Below, piece by piece: positions 14,309-45,915 of a stretch of DNA of 45,915 bases. A program made the position numbers and the translations under genes. The DNA lies in NCBI GenBank assembly GCA_030588745.1, contig JAUUXB010000004.1, positions 1 through 45,915 on the forward strand. Direction: 5' to 3'. Numbering within the stretch: the stretch's first letter is position 1; each line of letters opens with the position of its first letter. The DNA is from a bacterium. Lineage in GTDB: Bacteria; Patescibacteriota; Minisyncoccia; Minisyncoccales; JANBVM01. The notes beneath the pieces are model-generated. The model saw only the letters and a program-made list of their open reading frames with translations, searched no databases and had not been told where the DNA came from.

Positions 14309-14836
14309 ATGAAAATTGAGAAAGTTAAAGAGATTTATAAAGGAGATTTTGTTTCTTTAAAAATAATTGAAGGAAAACTTAAAGGGCAAAACATTAAAAG
14401 AGAAATTGTTGTTTTTTCTAATACAGTTTCTGTTTTGCCTTTAATTGAAAAAGACAAGATAATCTTAATTAAGCAATATCGTGCTCCAGCAGAAAAAGAA
14501 TTATGGGAGATTCCAGCTGGCAAACTAGACAAGAATGAAGATCCTGAAAAAGGAGCAAAAAGAGAATTAGAAGAGGAAACAGGCTTTAAAGCTGGAAAAC
14601 TAGAGCAAATTGCAGAGTTTTATAAATCTCCTGGTTATTGTACAGAGTATATGTATGTTTTTAGAGCTACCTTTTTGGAGAAAACCAAGCAAAGACTTGA
14701 TGACGGTGAAATTATTGATCAAGTTAAAGTTTTTAGCTTAAGTGAAGCTTTAAAAATGATAGAGAATAAAGAGATAATAGACGCTGATACTATCATTGCT
14801 TTAATGTATGAGAAAGATAGGTGTAGGCAGAAATAG
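14309..14836 (+). CDS. NUDIX hydrolase, ADP-ribose pyrophosphatase-like
   Basis: 175 residues. The NUDIX box runs from GKLDKNEDPEKGA into RELEEETGF, giving the full Gx5Ex7REUxEExGU pattern that binds Mg. Upstream, IKQYRAPAEKELWEIPAG is typical of ADP-ribose pyrophosphatases (NudF-like), as is the FYKSPGYCTEYMYVF segment after the box. It probably cleaves ADP-ribose or similar nucleoside diphosphates in the cytoplasm. It is the second gene of a two-gene unit with the HD protein. Confidence 0.88.
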   Translation: MKIEKVKEIYKGDFVSLKIIEGKLKGQNIKREIVVFSNTVSVLPLIEKDKIILIKQYRAPAEKELWEIPAGKLDKNEDPEKGAKRELEEETGFKAGKLEQIAEFYKSPGYCTEYMYVFRATFLEKTKQRLDDGEIIDQVKVFSLSEALKMIENKEIIDADTIIALMYEKDRCRQK

Positions 14837-41087: not shown

Positions 41088-41112
41088 GTTCGAGTCCTAC
41101 TGCCGGAGCTAA
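41088..41112 (+). other. tRNA 3'-end fragment, possible attachment-site scar
   Basis: Starting at the g of position 41090, gttcgagtcctactgccgga then gct matches tRNA positions 53-75: T loop TTCGAGT, 3' T stem cctac, 3' acceptor strand tgccgga, discriminator G as in tRNA-Asn. No 5' T-stem partner (gtagg) or tRNA body precedes it; alaS does. This is the piece integrases leave at tRNA genes. Confidence 0.5.
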
Positions 41113-41150
41113 ATTGGATAAAATTGCATGTAATTGTATATCAAGAAAAA

Positions 41151-41172
41151 TCGCCAGAAAGGCGGTTTTTTT
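41151..41172 (+). terminator. Terminator after alaS and the tRNA fragment
   Basis: cgcc/ggcg stem with loop agaaa followed by a run of seven Ts. Confidence 0.75.
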
Positions 41173-41208
41173 GTAAGGCAGGTTTGCATACACATTATGT
41201 TCTGGATA

Positions 41209-41237
41209 TTGACGATAATTTCTATATCAGCTAAAAT
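41209..41237 (+). promoter_or_regulatory. Promoter of the HTH-HEPN operon
   Basis: TTGACG (41209-41214), a 17-base spacer and TAAAAT (41232-41237). Inverted gatatt/aatatc halves (41205-41210, 41235-41240) flank it and might be an operator. Confidence 0.6.
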
Positions 41238-41241
41238 ATCT

Positions 41242-41289
41242 ATGGTCGACAATGTTAAAATTAAACTTATAGAAAAAAGACATAGATGA
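41242..41289 (+). CDS. Possible 15-residue leader peptide
   Basis: MVDNVKIKLIEKRHR, starting 5 bases after the -10 box and ending in a TGA that overlaps the ATG of the winged-helix gene (ATGA). It may start translation on a leaderless mRNA and hand ribosomes to the next gene. It could equally be chance. Confidence 0.35.
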   Translation: MVDNVKIKLIEKRHR

Positions 41290-41585
41290 ACGAAGAATTT
41301 ATAAAAGAAATAATAGCTTTAAAGTCTGTTCTTAGTCAAGTTTTAGCTCTCTATAAGCTGACACATGCAGATCAGATAAAAGCTGCTAAAAAGAAAGTGT
41401 TAGCTGGTGGACCCAGAAGAAAAGTCTATGATTTATGTGATGGTAAAAAGGGAGTTACAGAGATTGCAAAAATCCTTAAAGTTAGACAACCGACAGTCAC
41501 TCATCACTTAATAACACTTTCTGAATTGGGGTTTATAACAAGTGAGACTAGAAAAGGGAAAAAATATTTTTTCAAATTAATTTAA
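41286..41585 (+). CDS. Winged-helix regulator, gene 1 of HTH-HEPN operon
   Basis: 99 residues. A hydrophobic N-terminal helix (LKSVLSQVLALYKL) is followed by a linker and a winged HTH in the last 50 residues (KGVTEIAKILKVRQPTVTHHL, then the wing LGFITSETRKGKKYFFKLI). This is ArsR/MarR-like in style, without metal-binding cysteines. It is the promoter-proximal gene of four tightly spaced genes and a likely autoregulator (inference). Confidence 0.7.
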   Translation: MNEEFIKEIIALKSVLSQVLALYKLTHADQIKAAKKKVLAGGPRRKVYDLCDGKKGVTEIAKILKVRQPTVTHHLITLSELGFITSETRKGKKYFFKLI

Positions 41586-41600
41586 AGACAAAATAATAAC

Positions 41601-41855
41601 ATGCCCTCAAACAAAAAAACACAAGATATTACAAAGAGATTAGATGTAATCATTAAGTTTTTATTAATTTTCCTTACTCAAGATAAGACAAAAAGATCAA
41701 AACCAACCTTAACTGAGTTAATTGATGAATTTAGACAATTAGGTTTTCAGAACCAAGAAATTGCACCATTACTAGGAAAAACCAATAAACAAATATCAGA
41801 CTTATTCTCTCTTAGCAAAAAAAGAAAGAAGAAGGAGACTAAAAAGAAAAAGTAA
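41601..41855 (+). CDS. Small HTH protein, gene 2 of HTH-HEPN operon
   Basis: 84 residues. A hydrophobic helix (RLDVIIKFLLIFL) is followed by a sigma-4-like HTH (LIDEFRQLGFQNQEIAPLLGKTNKQISDLFSL) and a very basic end (KKRKKKETKKKK). It shares the layout hydrophobic helix plus HTH with genes 1 and 3, so the three may be paralogues or partners. Family not recognised. Confidence 0.65.
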   Translation: MPSNKKTQDITKRLDVIIKFLLIFLTQDKTKRSKPTLTELIDEFRQLGFQNQEIAPLLGKTNKQISDLFSLSKKRKKKETKKKK

Positions 41856-41856
41856 G

Positions 41857-42036
41857 ATGAAAAAACAACAGAAAAAAGAATCTAAAACGGAGGAAATCAT
41901 AGATTTACTGAAAAAGCTTTTGATTGTTGAGTTTAGTAGAGCTGGTATGACCCAACGTGAGATACGGAAGATAGTTGGCACAGATATTAATATGGTGAAT
42001 AAAATTGCTAAATGTTTGAAGAAGAAACAAAATTAG
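41857..42036 (+). CDS. Very small HTH protein, gene 3 of HTH-HEPN operon
   Basis: 59 residues: a charged start, hydrophobic helix IIDLLKKLLIVEF, then HTH SRAGMTQREIRKIVGTDINM, then a basic end CLKKKQN. It starts 1 base after gene 2 and the next gene starts 1 base after it. The regular spacing and shared layout with genes 1 and 2 support it as a real gene. Confidence 0.65.
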   Translation: MKKQQKKESKTEEIIDLLKKLLIVEFSRAGMTQREIRKIVGTDINMVNKIAKCLKKKQN

Positions 42037-42037
42037 T

Positions 42038-42829
42038 ATGGCGATAGAAGATATTAACATTTTAAAAAATAATTGCGAAGAATATGCCCAGACAGCTGGC
42101 AAAAGTGTTGAAATATTAAAAAATGCAAACGGGAAAAATCATTACACAAAAATTGCTAAGATCGTCGGAATTCATCAAACAACAGTAAGCGGTCTCCTTA
42201 AAAAAGCCGAAAGGTTAGGATTGGCTAAAAGAACACAACTCGGGGTTTATAAGAAAACTGCTGGTATTTTGAGTTACATGCCCCCAAAAAGCAAAGTTAG
42301 GAAAAAATCTACGAAAACGGTATCAGCTATTATCAAAAAACTAACTAGAAACAAAAAAGCTAAAATTAAAAGTTCTATTTCTCCCGACTTTCTTATCCTC
42401 AATAGAATAGAAGCGAATATGTTGAAAATGGCAAAAGCGTATCAGCACCTATATGCCGTGGAAAATTCATTAAGGGAACTGATTAGAAAAGTACTAATAT
42501 CGAAAGTTGATTGGTGGAAAAATTACATTCCCAGTAGTATACAAAAAGTTGTTGAGGACACTATTAAGAAAACGCCTTATGATGCATTAAAAAGGAAGGA
42601 TCAGCTTGAATATACTCACCTAGGACAGCTTAAAGAGATTATTATCAATAAGAAGAACTGGAATGATTTTCTTCCGTATCTAAACGAGAAGGACAAGAGT
42701 TCTTTCGCGGTCACAATCGATAAAGCAATTCCTTCCAGGAATGCCATTGGTCATTGTATTCCACTTAAATCAAAAGATTTAAAAGTTGTCGACGTAAGGT
42801 TTGAGGATATTTTAAAAATGATAAAATGA
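42038..42829 (+). CDS. HTH plus Swt1-like HEPN domain protein, gene 4
   Basis: 263 residues. An N-terminal HTH (about 36-70: HYTKIAKIVGIHQTTVSGLLKK) and a Lys-rich linker lead to a C-terminal HEPN domain of the Swt1 type (about 118-263; ENSLRELIRKVL, YTHLGQLKEIIINKKNW). The HEPN nuclease motif R-x4-H is present as RNAIGH (residues 234-239). HEPN proteins of this kind often cleave RNA in toxin-antitoxin or phage-defence systems. With three small HTH genes in front, a regulated RNase toxin is the best reading (inference). Confidence 0.75.
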   Translation: MAIEDINILKNNCEEYAQTAGKSVEILKNANGKNHYTKIAKIVGIHQTTVSGLLKKAERLGLAKRTQLGVYKKTAGILSYMPPKSKVRKKSTKTVSAIIKKLTRNKKAKIKSSISPDFLILNRIEANMLKMAKAYQHLYAVENSLRELIRKVLISKVDWWKNYIPSSIQKVVEDTIKKTPYDALKRKDQLEYTHLGQLKEIIINKKNWNDFLPYLNEKDKSSFAVTIDKAIPSRNAIGHCIPLKSKDLKVVDVRFEDILKMIK

Positions 42830-42982
42830 GTCATAAGTTTGTAACAACGGCAAACTACAGTCGCTCAAAATTCGATATGAAACAGATTCTAACATCATCC
42901 AGCTGACAATAAAATCGGTACTTTAGCTCCAAAATTATCAAAAAACCAAGTTCTAATATTGTACCATCCCCGGAGCCGCCCG

Positions 42983-43013
42983 CCCCGAGAGATTTTCTCG
43001 GGGTTGACTTTTT
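42983..43013 (+). terminator. Terminator after the HTH-HEPN operon
   Basis: ccccgaga (42983-42990) pairs with tctcgggg (42996-43003), followed by TTGACTTTTTT. A GC-rich stretch upstream (42968-42982) is out of character with the region. Confidence 0.75.
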
Positions 43014-43031
43014 TATTGAGTTTGTTAAAGT
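43004..43031 (+). promoter_or_regulatory. Possible promoter for the binding-protein gene
   Basis: TTGACT (43004-43009), a 16-base spacer and TAAAGT (43026-43031), overlapping the preceding terminator tail. Confidence 0.35.
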
Positions 43032-43068
43032 ACTTTAGTCAAGGAGGAAATGTTCTTTGACAAAAAGA

Positions 43069-43075
43069 AAAGGAG
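43069..43075 (+). promoter_or_regulatory. Shine-Dalgarno site, unusual for this region
   Basis: AAAGGAG about 10 bases before the ATG at 43085; a second purine-rich AAGGAGG lies at 43041. Native genes in the window lack such motifs. Confidence 0.6.
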
Positions 43076-43084
43076 TGATGTGAA

Positions 43085-43786
43085 ATGCAGAAAACAAAAG
43101 AGAAGATGCATGTTTATTCCTCAGGTGCCACAGCGCCACCCTTAAAAAGAGCTACAAAAGTTTTCAGAGATAAATTTGGGGCAGAATTTGAGTTCACAAC
43201 TGGTCGAGCCGAGGAACTTGTACAAAAGATTCTTAAAACCGAGCATGGGGACATCTTACAGTGTGGAGCGGAGTTTCTGCTTGACGACGCCGAGTGGAAG
43301 GAACTCATAATCAAAGGAAGTAGGAGAAGTGTCGGTCTCCGCCGTTCAGTCATTATCGTACAAAAAGGGAATCCCAAGGATATCAAATCCCTTGAAGATA
43401 TTATGAGAGAAGGAATGAGAGTCGGCATATCTATAAGCGGTTGCTTAGTAGGTGTCTGGGATGACATATGTAGTAAAGCAGGAATCACAAGGGGCTTACT
43501 GAAGAACATTACCAATCTAGCGGATGGGTGCGGGGATGTGATGGCACTGATCCATAAAGGGAAAGTAGACGCCATCTTCGGCTGGAATGCCTTCGAGCAT
43601 ATCTGGCCAAAAACCTCGGAGGCCATAGAATTTCCAAGAGAGTTGCAAGTATTTAGAAGTACGGGCATAGGAATCCTCAAGTATTCGGACCATAGACAAC
43701 TTGCCAGCAGATTTCTTGATTTTCTCGTATCCGAAGAAGGAAAAAGAATCTACAAAGATTATGGCTGGGTATATGGGTCTGGTTGA
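43085..43786 (+). CDS. Orphan molybdate/tungstate-type substrate-binding protein, probably acquired
   Basis: 233 residues with the periplasmic-binding fold of the ModA/WtpA type: HVYSSGATAPPLKRATKVF, TTGRAEELVQKI, DILQCGAEF, the hinge strand RRSVIIVQKGNP, DGCGDVMALIHKGKVDAIFGW and FLVSEEGKRIYKDYGWV. There is no signal peptide or lipobox, no permease or ATPase nearby, and codon use is visibly richer in G and C than in its neighbours. A Shine-Dalgarno motif precedes it. It may be a cytoplasmic anion sensor or a captured transport gene without partners. Confidence 0.72.
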   Translation: MQKTKEKMHVYSSGATAPPLKRATKVFRDKFGAEFEFTTGRAEELVQKILKTEHGDILQCGAEFLLDDAEWKELIIKGSRRSVGLRRSVIIVQKGNPKDIKSLEDIMREGMRVGISISGCLVGVWDDICSKAGITRGLLKNITNLADGCGDVMALIHKGKVDAIFGWNAFEHIWPKTSEAIEFPRELQVFRSTGIGILKYSDHRQLASRFLDFLVSEEGKRIYKDYGWVYGSG

Positions 43787-43825
43787 GGCAACCAGGGGAA
43801 AGTTCAAGCTCAAGTTGGGATAAGG

Positions 43826-43912
43826 ATGAAAAGAATAAAGATGTTCATCCATGAATTTAGGCTTGGGATTTTTAAGTTTAGTTCAAAACCAATACCTATT
43901 TCACGATATTGA
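43826..43912 (+). pseudogene. 28-codon ORF, perhaps the cut-off start of a lost gene
   Basis: MKRIKMFIHEFRLGIFKF and ten more residues, 39 bases after the binding-protein gene, then TGA. It has a purine-rich GGATAAGG in front. Possibly the start of a permease or other partner gene that has decayed; no family can be assigned. Confidence 0.25.
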
Positions 43913-43940
43913 GGTTTAGGAAATTTAAATTAGTAAATTA

Positions 43941-43967
43941 ACCCCGTTTTTTAGGGGCTTTTTTATT
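43941..43967 (+). terminator. Terminator after the acquired binding-protein region
   Basis: cccc/gggg stem with an 8-base loop, then a T run. The stem is short, so only moderate support. Confidence 0.5.
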
Positions 43968-44024
43968 TAAATAAAGCCAAGATGTATAGACCCACAAGAC
44001 ACCTTGTGTTCGATATCATAGATT

Positions 44025-44095
44025 GGGCGATGGTAATTAATAATCTCTTAGAAAGAAGCTAAACAGGTTCGAACATCGTCCCGCCAGGGGAGCTG
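44025..44095 (+). other. tRNA-like fragment in a gene-free stretch
   Basis: gggcgat (44025-44031) can pair with atcgtcc (44075-44081), and an intact TTCGAAC T-loop-like motif lies at 44068-44074. The piece between is too short for a tRNA and no anticodon arm is seen. It may be a decayed tRNA or tmRNA end. The gap 43787-44205 otherwise holds a 28-codon ORF and two terminators. Confidence 0.25.
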
Positions 44096-44105
44096 AGATC
44101 AGTAA

Positions 44106-44127
44106 ATTGCCCTTGAGGCGGTTTTTT
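44106..44127 (+). terminator. Terminator after the tRNA-like fragment
   Basis: attgcc/ggcggt stem (with G-U pairs), loop cttga, then TTTTTT. Confidence 0.55.
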
Positions 44128-44217
44128 AGTAACTTGAAAAAAATATAAATTTCAGATAAAATTCATTAAGAATATTAAAAATTTAATAAGTGAATTAGAA
44201 AAGAGGTGGACATATTT

Positions 44218-44622
44218 TTGAAAAATGGATTAAAATTCACGCCTGTGTTCAGGTTTTTAGAGAAAGAAAAGAAAGAGAAGGATAAACATTGGAAAAGAGT
44301 AAATGAACAGTTCATTAAAAATCATTTTTTACCTGATTTACTAAAGAAAAGACAGATGAGCCCTATTGAACAAATTACTTCTACAAAGTGCTTAAAGTGC
44401 GAAATATATAGATTAGTTTCAGTGGAGTTGGTTGAAAATAAAAATTGGAAGATAAGATGTAACTACTGCGGATTTAAAATTACAATCAGATTCAAAAAAG
44501 GAAGATGGAAATTAGTTAACAATAATAATGATTATGCTACTCGGTATTCTACGAAGGAACAAAAAAAAATGAAAAAACTTGCAAGCCGTAGTATAAGAAA
44601 ATGGCTTAAAATTTATTGGTGA
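44218..44622 (+). CDS. Zinc-ribbon hypothetical protein
   Basis: 134 residues from a TTG at 44218, chosen because GAGGTGG lies about 8 bases before it; a GTG at 44206 in the same frame would overlap that motif. The protein is basic and has one zinc ribbon, CLKC...CNYCG, near its middle (about residues 58-83), flanked by Lys-rich helices and a KKLASRSIRKWLKIYW end. Nucleic-acid binding is plausible. Family not recognised. Its stop codon is inside the terminator stem. Confidence 0.55.
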   Translation: MKNGLKFTPVFRFLEKEKKEKDKHWKRVNEQFIKNHFLPDLLKKRQMSPIEQITSTKCLKCEIYRLVSVELVENKNWKIRCNYCGFKITIRFKKGRWKLVNNNNDYATRYSTKEQKKMKKLASRSIRKWLKIYW

Positions 44623-44656
44623 GACTTATAGTCTCATTTTTTTATACTACGGCTTG
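44582..44656 (+). repeat. 14-bp perfect inverted repeat around the gene end
   Basis: caagccgtagtata (44582-44595) and its exact reverse complement (44643-44656) bracket the terminator. The RNA end would fold into a large closed structure. Confidence 0.7.
44620..44643 (+). terminator. Terminator overlapping the stop codon
   Basis: tgagact (44620-44626) pairs with agtctca (44630-44636), loop tat, then seven Ts. The stop TGA forms the first stem bases. Confidence 0.8.
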
Positions 44657-44709
44657 ATTTCTTTTGTAATTATGATAAAACAGAACCACAACAAAGGATA
44701 TGATTAAGA

Positions 44710-44883
44710 ATGACAAAAAGTATGAAAGATAAGAAAATAACCAAGGAAGAGTTGGAGGAGCAAGGTTGGGACTATATTCTAACCTTTGGATATTCTCTTA
44801 AGCTCTTTAAAAAAGGGAAGAAAGGTATCTTTTGGGATTCTGAAACCAAAAAAGTCACACATGAGTTCTTATGGCAAACATAA
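44710..44883 (+). CDS. 57-residue hypothetical protein
   Basis: MTKSMKDKKITKEELEEQGW, then aromatic beta-like segments (YILTFGYSLKLFKKGKKGIFW) and HEFLWQT. Unknown family. A TGATAAAAC -10-like box sits about 30 bases upstream and a terminator follows, which supports a real gene. Charge pattern and size resemble small host-interaction or phage-type proteins, but nothing specific can be said. Confidence 0.5.
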   Translation: MTKSMKDKKITKEELEEQGWDYILTFGYSLKLFKKGKKGIFWDSETKKVTHEFLWQT

Positions 44884-44885
44884 GA

Positions 44886-44922
44886 AAGGGGTAGTGTATT
44901 AAAACCTACCCTTTATTTTTTT
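44886..44922 (+). terminator. Terminator after the 57-residue gene
   Basis: aaggggtag region (44886-44894) pairs with ctaccctt (44906-44914), followed by a T tract. Confidence 0.7.
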
Positions 44923-45002
44923 GTGATAAAATTAAAAAAAGAATTTACGAAAAAAATAGAGTTGACCCCATTTATATTTTGCCAAACTATTATTATAAAA
45001 GC

Positions 45003-45030
45003 TTGACAAATTTTATGAATAGTGTATAAT
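45003..45030 (+). promoter_or_regulatory. Consensus promoter of the 60-residue gene
   Basis: TTGACA (45003-45008), a 16-base spacer and TGTATAAT with a perfect -10 at 45025-45030. The start is predicted at or next to the ATG at 45038, so a leaderless mRNA. It is the strongest promoter match in the window. Confidence 0.8.
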
Positions 45031-45037
45031 TATAATC

Positions 45038-45220
45038 ATGACAGATAAAGAGACGATCGAGGAACAAAGGAAAAAAGCACTGGATGCTCTCCCGGACAAA
45101 TTCTGGGAAGAGTACACCGCTCTTTCCAAAAAACTTCTTGAGGCTGAAGAAAGAAATCAACCTCAAGAGATGAAAAGGATTGTTGCAGAAATGCAACAGC
45201 TCCTTCCTAAATACGAATAA
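45038..45220 (+). CDS. 60-residue helical hypothetical protein
   Basis: MTDKETIEEQRKKALDALPD, then FWEEYTALSKKLLEAEERNQ and a second helix ending QQLLPKYE. Two acidic amphipathic helices, probably a helical hairpin or coiled coil. Unknown family. A consensus promoter in front and a terminator behind suggest a well expressed single gene. Confidence 0.6.
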   Translation: MTDKETIEEQRKKALDALPDKFWEEYTALSKKLLEAEERNQPQEMKRIVAEMQQLLPKYE

Positions 45221-45224
45221 ATTT

Positions 45225-45252
45225 AGGGAGAATTTTTCTTCCCTCTTTTTTT
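45225..45252 (+). terminator. Terminator after the 60-residue gene
   Basis: aggga/tccct stem with an AT-rich loop, then C and seven Ts. Confidence 0.65.
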
Positions 45253-45289
45253 AAGTCCATAATTTGATTGTGGTTTTGAAAAGGACAAG

Positions 45290-45320
45290 AACTGCCTCAA
45301 AAAGGTAGTTTTTGTTTTAG
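45290..45320 (+). terminator. Second terminator-like hairpin in the gap
   Basis: aactgcct (45290-45297) pairs with aggtagtt (45303-45310), one G-U pair, then TTTGTTTT. Confidence 0.6.
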
Positions 45321-45376
45321 CTGGCTAAATTTGGAATATTAACCTTTTCTTTGTTCACAGTCCTAATTCTAATAAC

Positions 45377-45410
45377 GTCTGTTCCTCGAAGTCAGGATAG
45401 ACTTTTTGTT
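45377..45410 (+). terminator. Third terminator-like hairpin before the surface protein
   Basis: gtct...tcct pairs with agga...agac (45377-45402), then TTTTTGTT. With the hairpin at 45290 it could bracket a small RNA; no gene is visible between. Confidence 0.45.
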
Positions 45411-45499
45411 GCTATTGATAGTTATAGTATTTATATAAACAAGGCGTTTAGATGACGAAGTTTTTTTTATTTCATCTTTTCAAACACAAAAGATTTCTA

Positions 45500-45505
45500 T
45501 ATAAT
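45500..45505 (+). promoter_or_regulatory. -10 box of the last gene
   Basis: TATAAT, 6 bases before the ATG at 45512; -35 candidate TTTTCA at 45477-45482. A leaderless start is likely. Confidence 0.45.
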
Positions 45506-45511
45506 AACCTA

Positions 45512-45915
45512 ATGACTAAAAAAATATTTGATATCATACCTCCAGAGAAGGTAGAGAAGGATAAAAAACCAGTTGTTAAAACCTTTAAGGAAAAGATTTC
45601 TGAACAAGAAGTTATTGAAGAGATAAAGAAAAAGGCTAAAGCCATAGTTGCTGGTGAAAAGATTGAAAAAAAAGGTTTTAAGGTGGGCTGGGTCATTGTT
45701 CCTCTTTTTTTAGTATTGCTTATTTTTCTTGCTTTTCAGATGTCAAAAGCTGAAATTGAGATATGTCCTAAAACAGAATTAATTACCCTTGAAACAAAAT
45801 TAACGATAGATTCGAATACTGATGAAATTGATTTGTCTTATAAAATCATTCCTGCTTATGTTTTTGAAGCCCAAAAAAGTCTTTATGAAGAATTTGACTC
45901 AACGGGTAAAACCTT
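45512..45915 (+). CDS. Membrane-anchored surface protein (baseplate-J-like family), 3' end cut
   Basis: 134 visible residues, open at the window end. About 65 charged, helical cytoplasmic residues (MTKKIFDIIPPEKVEKDKKP onward) are followed by one membrane helix (about 70-87, VGWVIVPLFLVLLIFLAF) and then an outside beta region (AEIEICPKTELITLETKL). The layout resembles large CPR proteins often annotated as baseplate J/gp47-like. An envelope role is inferred; the domain that would decide lies outside. Confidence 0.6.
   Translation, partial: MTKKIFDIIPPEKVEKDKKPVVKTFKEKISEQEVIEEIKKKAKAIVAGEKIEKKGFKVGWVIVPLFLVLLIFLAFQMSKAEIEICPKTELITLETKLTIDSNTDEIDLSYKIIPAYVFEAQKSLYEEFDSTGKT

Follow-up and report, generated by a model that had tools for sequence, protein, structure and literature searches.

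Several described bacterial systems come close to the locus reported here. PD-Lambda-3 is a phage defense of Escherichia coli that was found experimentally. The CPR/Patescibacteria account for much of bacterial diversity, and little is known of their conflict systems. In type II toxin-antitoxin systems, one antitoxin is paired with one toxin, and the small DNA-binding (HTH) gene is placed directly upstream of the gene with the toxin domain. HTH-type antitoxins swap among unrelated toxins, and in the Panacea/PanAT and NetFlax systems, which consist of two genes with one antitoxin, the small regulator or antitoxin is kept while unrelated toxins, including membrane toxins, are exchanged (PMC10440598). 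According to the passages on HTH, Swt1 and Ymh of a survey of the HEPN superfamily, its members are recognized by an R-x4-6-H motif, in which the arginine is followed by a polar residue, and by a second motif, Ex3[KR]; the same passages tie the HEPN and Ymh families to restriction-modification operons and conflict and contain no strings of small HTH genes (PMC3710099).

Here we describe an operon of four genes within a stretch of 45,915 nucleotides (the window), which represents contig C18 of a 626-kb MAG (G000) from an ultra-small (CPR) bacterium. As in type II toxin-antitoxin systems, small HTH genes directly precede a toxin-domain gene at this and related loci, with gaps of −20 to +22 bp; however, there are two to five of them per operon instead of one antitoxin and one toxin. 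With Panacea/PanAT and NetFlax, these loci share the retention of small regulators in front of exchanged, unrelated effectors, but their HTH proteins differ from each other within a string and the effectors carry a shared adaptor domain on the toxin side. The Pfam matches included no Panacea model. The R-x4-H and Ex3R motifs and the association with restriction-modification genes are features in common with the Swt1-like and Ymh HEPN families, as described in the passages named above. The Ymh-type effector of one related locus (G173) matches PD-Lambda-3_B of PADLOC (E 1e-6), but the partner genes are others and the C-terminal domain alone is in common. A candidate system of PADLOC, PDC-M34, is matched through its component PDC-M34B by the HEPN part of the effector in the window (E 1e-22) and in the relatives from G022, G172 and G356 (E 6e-36, 7e-29 and 4e-37, respectively), whereas the string loci lack PDC-M34A and have small HTH genes in its place. 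As PDC-M34A matched none of the small proteins scanned at string loci, a filing of the locus under PDC-M34 was rejected. True pairs of PDC-M34A and PDC-M34B occur in G022 (contig C17, L021) and in G099 (contig C5, L022); G022 thus has both PDC-M34 and the small-HTH version.

Searches of the small-HTH string against PADLOC, Pfam, NCBIfam and PHROGs returned nothing informative, and our searches of the open-access literature turned up neither small-HTH strings with these effectors nor, in CPR bacteria, the cassette arrays reported below. An earlier note on the window, made from its sequence, had matched the gene set to no known system, and it is indeed described in none of the libraries searched. 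The effector domains are known; the small-HTH string as a shared module is apparently undescribed.

A four-gene operon between a tRNA scar and a cassette site

The operon is located 3' of alaS on the plus strand and comprises four genes encoding proteins of 99, 84, 59 and 263 aa. Their coordinates and spacings (15, 1 and 1 bp) agree with the four-gene operon, with genes 1-15 bases apart, that had been proposed. Directly behind the alaS stop codon, a 3'-end fragment of a tRNA-Asn (41,088-41,109, plus strand) marks the left cassette edge. It equals, with one difference, the 3' end of the intact tRNA-Asn gene at 7,538-7,610 of contig C23 of the same genome (L075), and the integration scar that the earlier note had suspected here is therefore real. 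The scar is present behind alaS in G000 and in the same-genus genome G001 and absent from the same-family genomes G002 and G004, where the gene next to alaS appears to be the ancestral one. G000 and G001 carry different cargo behind the scar. The right cassette edge is formed by a cassette-array site, CAAGTTCTAATATTGTACCATCCCCGGAGC, at 42,947-42,976 on the plus strand (27.3 bits to the site matrix), and a weaker copy of the site occurs at 42,883 (17.5 bits). A 46-bp stretch ending at the site at 42,947-42,976 is found, with 96% identity, behind the operon in G022.

A single promoter and a closing terminator had also been proposed. A candidate sigma-70-like promoter (TTGACG-17-TAAAAT, 10 of 12 consensus bases) can be placed at 41,209-41,237 on the plus strand; it falls within DNA 83% identical to G022, but the pattern as such is no commoner than chance (11 found versus 12.5 expected). 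The terminator-like hairpin exists as well (42,982-43,004, plus strand), but is located 150 bp after the operon, directly behind the cassette-array site.

Gene 1 (41,286-41,585, plus strand) encodes a winged-HTH protein with an ArsR-type fold, which matches PF01022 above the cut-off (E 5.4e-9, 36.2 bits, cut-off 22). Against the NCBIfam metalloregulator model NF033788 it scored 37.0 bits, below the cut-off of 55. It is 89% identical to its counterpart in G022, with a dN/dS of 0.06, and is related to the first gene of a second copy of the system in G000 (contig C24). Gene 2 (41,601-41,855, plus strand) codes for a small HTH protein with an ortholog in G022 (68% identity, dN/dS 0.33) and matches our small-HTH profile with an E of 5e-23, its own protein being part of the training set. 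These values for genes 1 and 2, together with the recurrence of the operon, show that it is more than a chance arrangement. Gene 3 (41,857-42,036, plus strand) encodes a small HTH protein of a recurring subtype (..AG[LM]TQ.[QE]IR.I[VL]G.D...VN.I.K..K). It is nearest to one particular member each of the strings in G022, G195 and G173 (Z 32, 24 and 23) and aligns with these and with a member of the G267 string. In single-sequence scans against Pfam and NCBIfam, the short HTH proteins of genes 2 and 3 gave weak matches only. The earlier note had seen one layout, a hydrophobic helix followed by an HTH, in all three proteins; this holds for genes 2 and 3, while gene 1 is a winged HTH. The N-terminal helices of the window proteins are amphipathic at most: their maximum 19-residue Kyte-Doolittle values of 0.96-1.36 rule out transmembrane helices.

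Gene 4 (42,038-42,829, plus strand) encodes the 263-aa effector, with an N-terminal wHTH (residues about 22-75) and a C-terminal HEPN domain (about 125-262). The R-x4-H motif is formed by the codons of R234-N-A-I-G-H239 (42,737-42,754, plus strand), whose arginine precedes a polar residue; none of the aligned HEPN-effector relatives deviates at R234 or H239, and the second motif is present as the pair E142/R146, invariant across the HEPN set. Taken alone, gene 4 stays below the Pfam cut-off for HEPN_Swt1 (19.0 bits, cut-off 27.5); its relatives in G022, G172 and G356 exceed the curated cut-off for HEPN_Swt1, and so does the copy on C24 of G000, to which gene 4 is 43-44% identical, for HEPN_SAV2148. 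An AlphaFold2 model computed from single-sequence input is mostly helical, but its mean pLDDT of 39.8 is too low to bear on the fold; solved structures searched with the HEPN profile gave no match. Judged by its sequence, gene 4 encodes a HEPN protein with an intact active-site motif, in line with the earlier proposal, and a putative RNase. The same HEPN family was also observed within open frames of about 700-830 aa (L028, L029 and L030 in G052, G071 and G098), which by eye, at the one locus read, appear to be fusions to a DUF262/ParB-like domain.

Strings of small HTH genes recur with different effectors

The gene arrangement is found within the order and in the wider phylum. Small-HTH strings organized as tight operons were detected at 13 loci in 12 Patescibacteria genomes, including the second copy in G000. 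Each string comprises two to five small HTH genes of about 52-99 aa. The lack of a conserved neighborhood in related genomes had been named in the earlier note as a refutation of its proposal; the neighborhood proved to be conserved. Given the second copy and the other string loci, a one-off gene set is ruled out, and recurrence together with purifying selection shows that the four ORFs are real genes rather than chance or non-coding frames.

HEPN effectors follow the strings in the window (99-84-59 aa, then 263 aa), on C24 of G000 (97-74-73-83, then 258 aa), on C6 of G022 (99-78-57-59, then 264 aa) and on C8 of G172 (75-71-68-57, then 261 aa). A wHTH-AlbA_2 protein takes this place on C22 of G084 (73-71-68-56, then 264 aa) and on C3 of G356 (71-68-62-75, then 263 aa), the latter being succeeded by a HEPN protein of 277 aa and a further gene of 57 aa. 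Ymh-type effectors are encoded on C10 of G173 (80-56-57-77, then 238 aa) and C9 of G267 (77-64-72-77, then 231 aa). On C1 of G577 (80-71-52), the string is followed by a 149-aa protein consisting of the adaptor and a one-helix membrane part, and on C1 of G263 (79-56) by an adaptor/membrane protein of 132 aa. The effector on C8 of G301 (71-67-57) has 301 aa and is followed by a 63-aa gene and a NucS-type nuclease of 308 aa; the one on C13 of G530 (57-62-55-76) has 295 aa, is 39% identical to the G301 effector and is followed by a 56-aa gene. The thirteenth string, on C34 of G195, runs into the contig end. An effector gene directly follows the string at all 12 loci with a readable downstream side, and the gene gaps lie between −20 and +22 bp in 12 of 12 readable operons; to judge by these gap sizes, the genes of string and effector are probably co-translated. 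The second copy in G000 (L012) represents a copy of the whole system (44% identical) on a contig of 4,051 bp, and could derive from another organism, the estimated contamination of the MAG being 5%.

When the small-HTH profile was scanned against the roughly 6,700 ORFs of all fetched loci, matches of up to 100 aa were confined to string loci, apart from a single isolated protein in G308. For 25 of the 27 small HTH proteins compared, the closest match comes from another string rather than from their own. Therefore, each string is a set of old, distinct subtypes and not the product of recent tandem duplication. The distinct subtypes would be compatible with a mixed complex as well as with separate roles.

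Behind the strings, five types of effector occur: Swt1/SAV2148-type HEPN, Ymh-type HEPN, SLFN AlbA_2, a short one-helix membrane protein and a nuclease-like protein. HEPN_Swt1, HEPN_SAV2148, SLFN_AlbA_2 and Hypoth_Ymh were assigned above Pfam cut-offs; the 301- and 295-aa effectors of G301 and G530 matched no Pfam family, and their designation as nuclease-like was made by eye. The exchange can be traced at the DNA level. Between the window and G022, identity is 83% from the promoter to the end of gene 3, and the two diverge at the start of the next gene. In G022 this is a fourth small HTH gene, followed by the gene for a HEPN protein that does not align with that of the window at the DNA level. 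Similarly, G172 and G084 share 94% DNA identity through four HTH genes, and the match stops at the effector gene, which encodes a HEPN protein in G172 and an AlbA_2 protein in G084. The HEPN, Ymh and membrane effectors have a homologous N-terminal adaptor of about 70 aa in common: models trained with one effector class left out recovered the left-out class at E values of 3e-16 to 5e-7. In the effector of the window, in that of C24 and in the AlbA_2 effectors, a wHTH is found in the adaptor's place. The three HTH partners with one HEPN effector of the earlier note thus describe the window, but are too narrow for the system, in which the string has two to five members and the effector is exchangeable.

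Patchy distribution and defense neighbors

With the HEPN protein detected in 7 of 196 relatives, and not in G001 of the same genus, the gene set is rare and patchy; small-HTH matches occurred in 2 of 49 genomes of another class. The G195 string adjoins complete type II restriction-modification genes (NgoFVII-type nuclease, C5-methylase and Vsr), as does the G577 string (TdeIII-type nuclease and C5-methylase), and the G173 string adjoins a DNA methylase. A defense neighbor is visible at some string loci, not all. No relative turned up in the phage, plasmid and viral-contig sets, which hold few CPR elements; searches of viral contigs with the small HTH proteins are included in this result. The HEPN protein gave no match in genome-contig and viral-contig collections, a result of little weight due to poor search patterns; an alignment across all HEPN types was too divergent for pattern search.

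A candidate modular conflict system

We propose to read the locus as one variant of a conflict system in Patescibacteria that is mobile and modular and similar to toxin-antitoxin or abortive-infection systems, and would give this reading a probability of roughly 0.6. Such a system is suggested by how the genes are laid out, by the exchange of toxin-like effectors and by a distribution that is both patchy and mobile. The data show conserved strings, effector exchange, an adaptor shared by otherwise unrelated effector domains, patchiness, horizontal spread and, at some loci, restriction-modification neighbors. By analogy, the exchange of toxin types behind an HTH string would be the usual look of defense and toxin-antitoxin systems. 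In the mechanism we envisage, several different small HTH proteins would make up a control module that is co-translated with a toxic effector at the operon end. On DNA, the small HTH proteins may assemble into a mixed complex, which would repress the operon and keep the effector inactive through the latter's N-terminal wHTH or adaptor domain. An invading phage or plasmid might then disturb or titrate the HTH complex, upon which the freed HEPN RNase would cut RNA via R234/H239 and growth would stop, as in toxin-antitoxin or abortive-infection systems. Against this reading, three to five HTH partners are unusual for a toxin-antitoxin system, a defense neighbor is not visible at every locus, and the phage, plasmid and viral-contig sets, in which CPR elements are few, gave no relatives.

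A different role for the small HTH proteins, which we regard as doubtful, would be that of sensors that bind foreign DNA features or RNA polymerase complexes and then recruit and activate the effector on the invader. The recurrence across loci of the different HTH subtypes of each string would fit such a role, as would the restriction-modification neighbors and the fusion of the adaptor or wHTH to effectors of unrelated activity, membrane proteins included, as in effector-recruiting defense systems. However, the operons begin with the small HTH genes and end with the effector gene, at distances from overlap to a few bp, which is the gene order of repressor/antitoxin-toxin operons. Repression and neutralization by a small-HTH complex is favored, with the sensor or recruiter role as the main rival. 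Two further explanations were considered. That serial HTH regulators control a housekeeping, RNA-processing HEPN RNase in an ordinary regulatory operon would agree with the HTH nature of all small proteins and the strong purifying selection on gene 1 (dN/dS 0.06), but appears improbable, as the effector is exchanged for AlbA_2, Ymh, membrane or nuclease-like proteins behind the same kind of string, is missing from G001 and most relatives and is located in a mobile cassette. If anything still less probable is that the operon belongs to an integrative element or phage as regulatory cargo, its HTH proteins serving transfer or lysogeny: although the tRNA-Asn scar and the cassette site at the operon edges, a tyrosine recombinase near the G084 locus and a long candidate resolvase-like ORF beside G301 point in this direction, no phage, conjugation or replication genes were recognized among the ORFs near the examined loci, the cassettes hold single operons, viral, phage and plasmid collections gave no matches, and the effector classes are toxin-like.

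It is conceivable, and put forward tentatively, that the loci represent a new class of immune system: different small HTH proteins, joined in a combinatorial set, would serve as a multi-part switch or sensor for any effector bearing the wHTH or adaptor that belongs to it, and would spread between genomes on tRNA-anchored cassettes without an integron integrase. The principle of promiscuous antitoxins would be extended by a control module that is built from several distinct HTH proteins and takes five or more effector types. G172 and G084, whose shared HTH string is followed by a HEPN and an AlbA_2 effector, respectively, provide a directly testable pair, and the small-HTH strings and the adaptor domain may serve as markers for finding unknown effectors.

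tRNA-associated gene-cassette arrays

As a finding separate from the string system, the operon is one unit of a tRNA-associated, integron-like gene-cassette array, and these arrays are possibly a larger finding than the operon itself. The 30-bp site at 42,947-42,976 belongs to an array-forming family, AAACAGGTTCTAACaTCGTCCAncccCGgAGc, whose conserved 30-34 bp end like a tRNA 3' end (Parcubacteria; window 41,088-45,915, L062-L075 and L094-L120). A matrix trained on other loci detected 62 further sites on 27 independent contigs, all 62 on the strand of the first site; the reversed sequence gave none, and a few of the contigs come from genomes also used in training. The sites are directly repeated between single-gene units, as expected of an array, and may recombine. 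Sites and tRNA genes, the latter often Asn or Gln, are on one strand in all 17 loci that have both, and by eye a terminator-like hairpin comes after many of the array sites. Named contigs with these sites belong to Parcubacteria, Colwellbacteria, Moraniibacteriota, Nomurabacteria, Nealsonbacteria and Zambryskibacteria or to MAGs labeled only Patescibacteria or bacterium.

The arrays resemble integron cassette arrays in their direct repeat sites of one orientation, with about one gene or operon between them and variable cargo at one place. They differ from integrons in that the integrase IntI (TIGR02249) has no match above the cut-off among 243 genomes of the order and that the site shows, by eye, no recognized attC form, which rules out a classical integron. 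One Xer-type recombinase is the only integrase-family match in G000, and likewise in the single-contig genome G004. The array site was not found at the strings of G172, G084 and G356, and the string system is therefore not tied to the arrays. At L176 in G084, direct repeats, GTGCGACATTTAATAGGYGA, flank the AlbA_2 operon next to a gene for an Xer-type tyrosine recombinase, which may point to a second mode of mobility.

The next cassette of the window (42,977-44,093) encodes an SBP_bac_11 (ModA-like) solute-binding protein (43,085-43,786) without evident signal peptide and ends at a strong array site at 44,064 (41.8 bits). In G001 (L013), with the same tRNA-Asn scar, the different cassette 300 bp behind alaS holds an ORF of about 42 aa with CxxC pairs, zinc-ribbon-like by eye, behind which come another gene and, at +1352, a second site. 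A site subtype, CCAAGTTCTAATATTGTACCATCCCCGGAGC (L074 at about 4,297, L117 at about 5,399), was observed unchanged behind the HEPN operons in two genomes and also in two further arrays. Finally, an exact array site occurs at 14,707-14,725, near the end of a contig classed as viral (L121, IMGVR_UViG_3300009529_003397).
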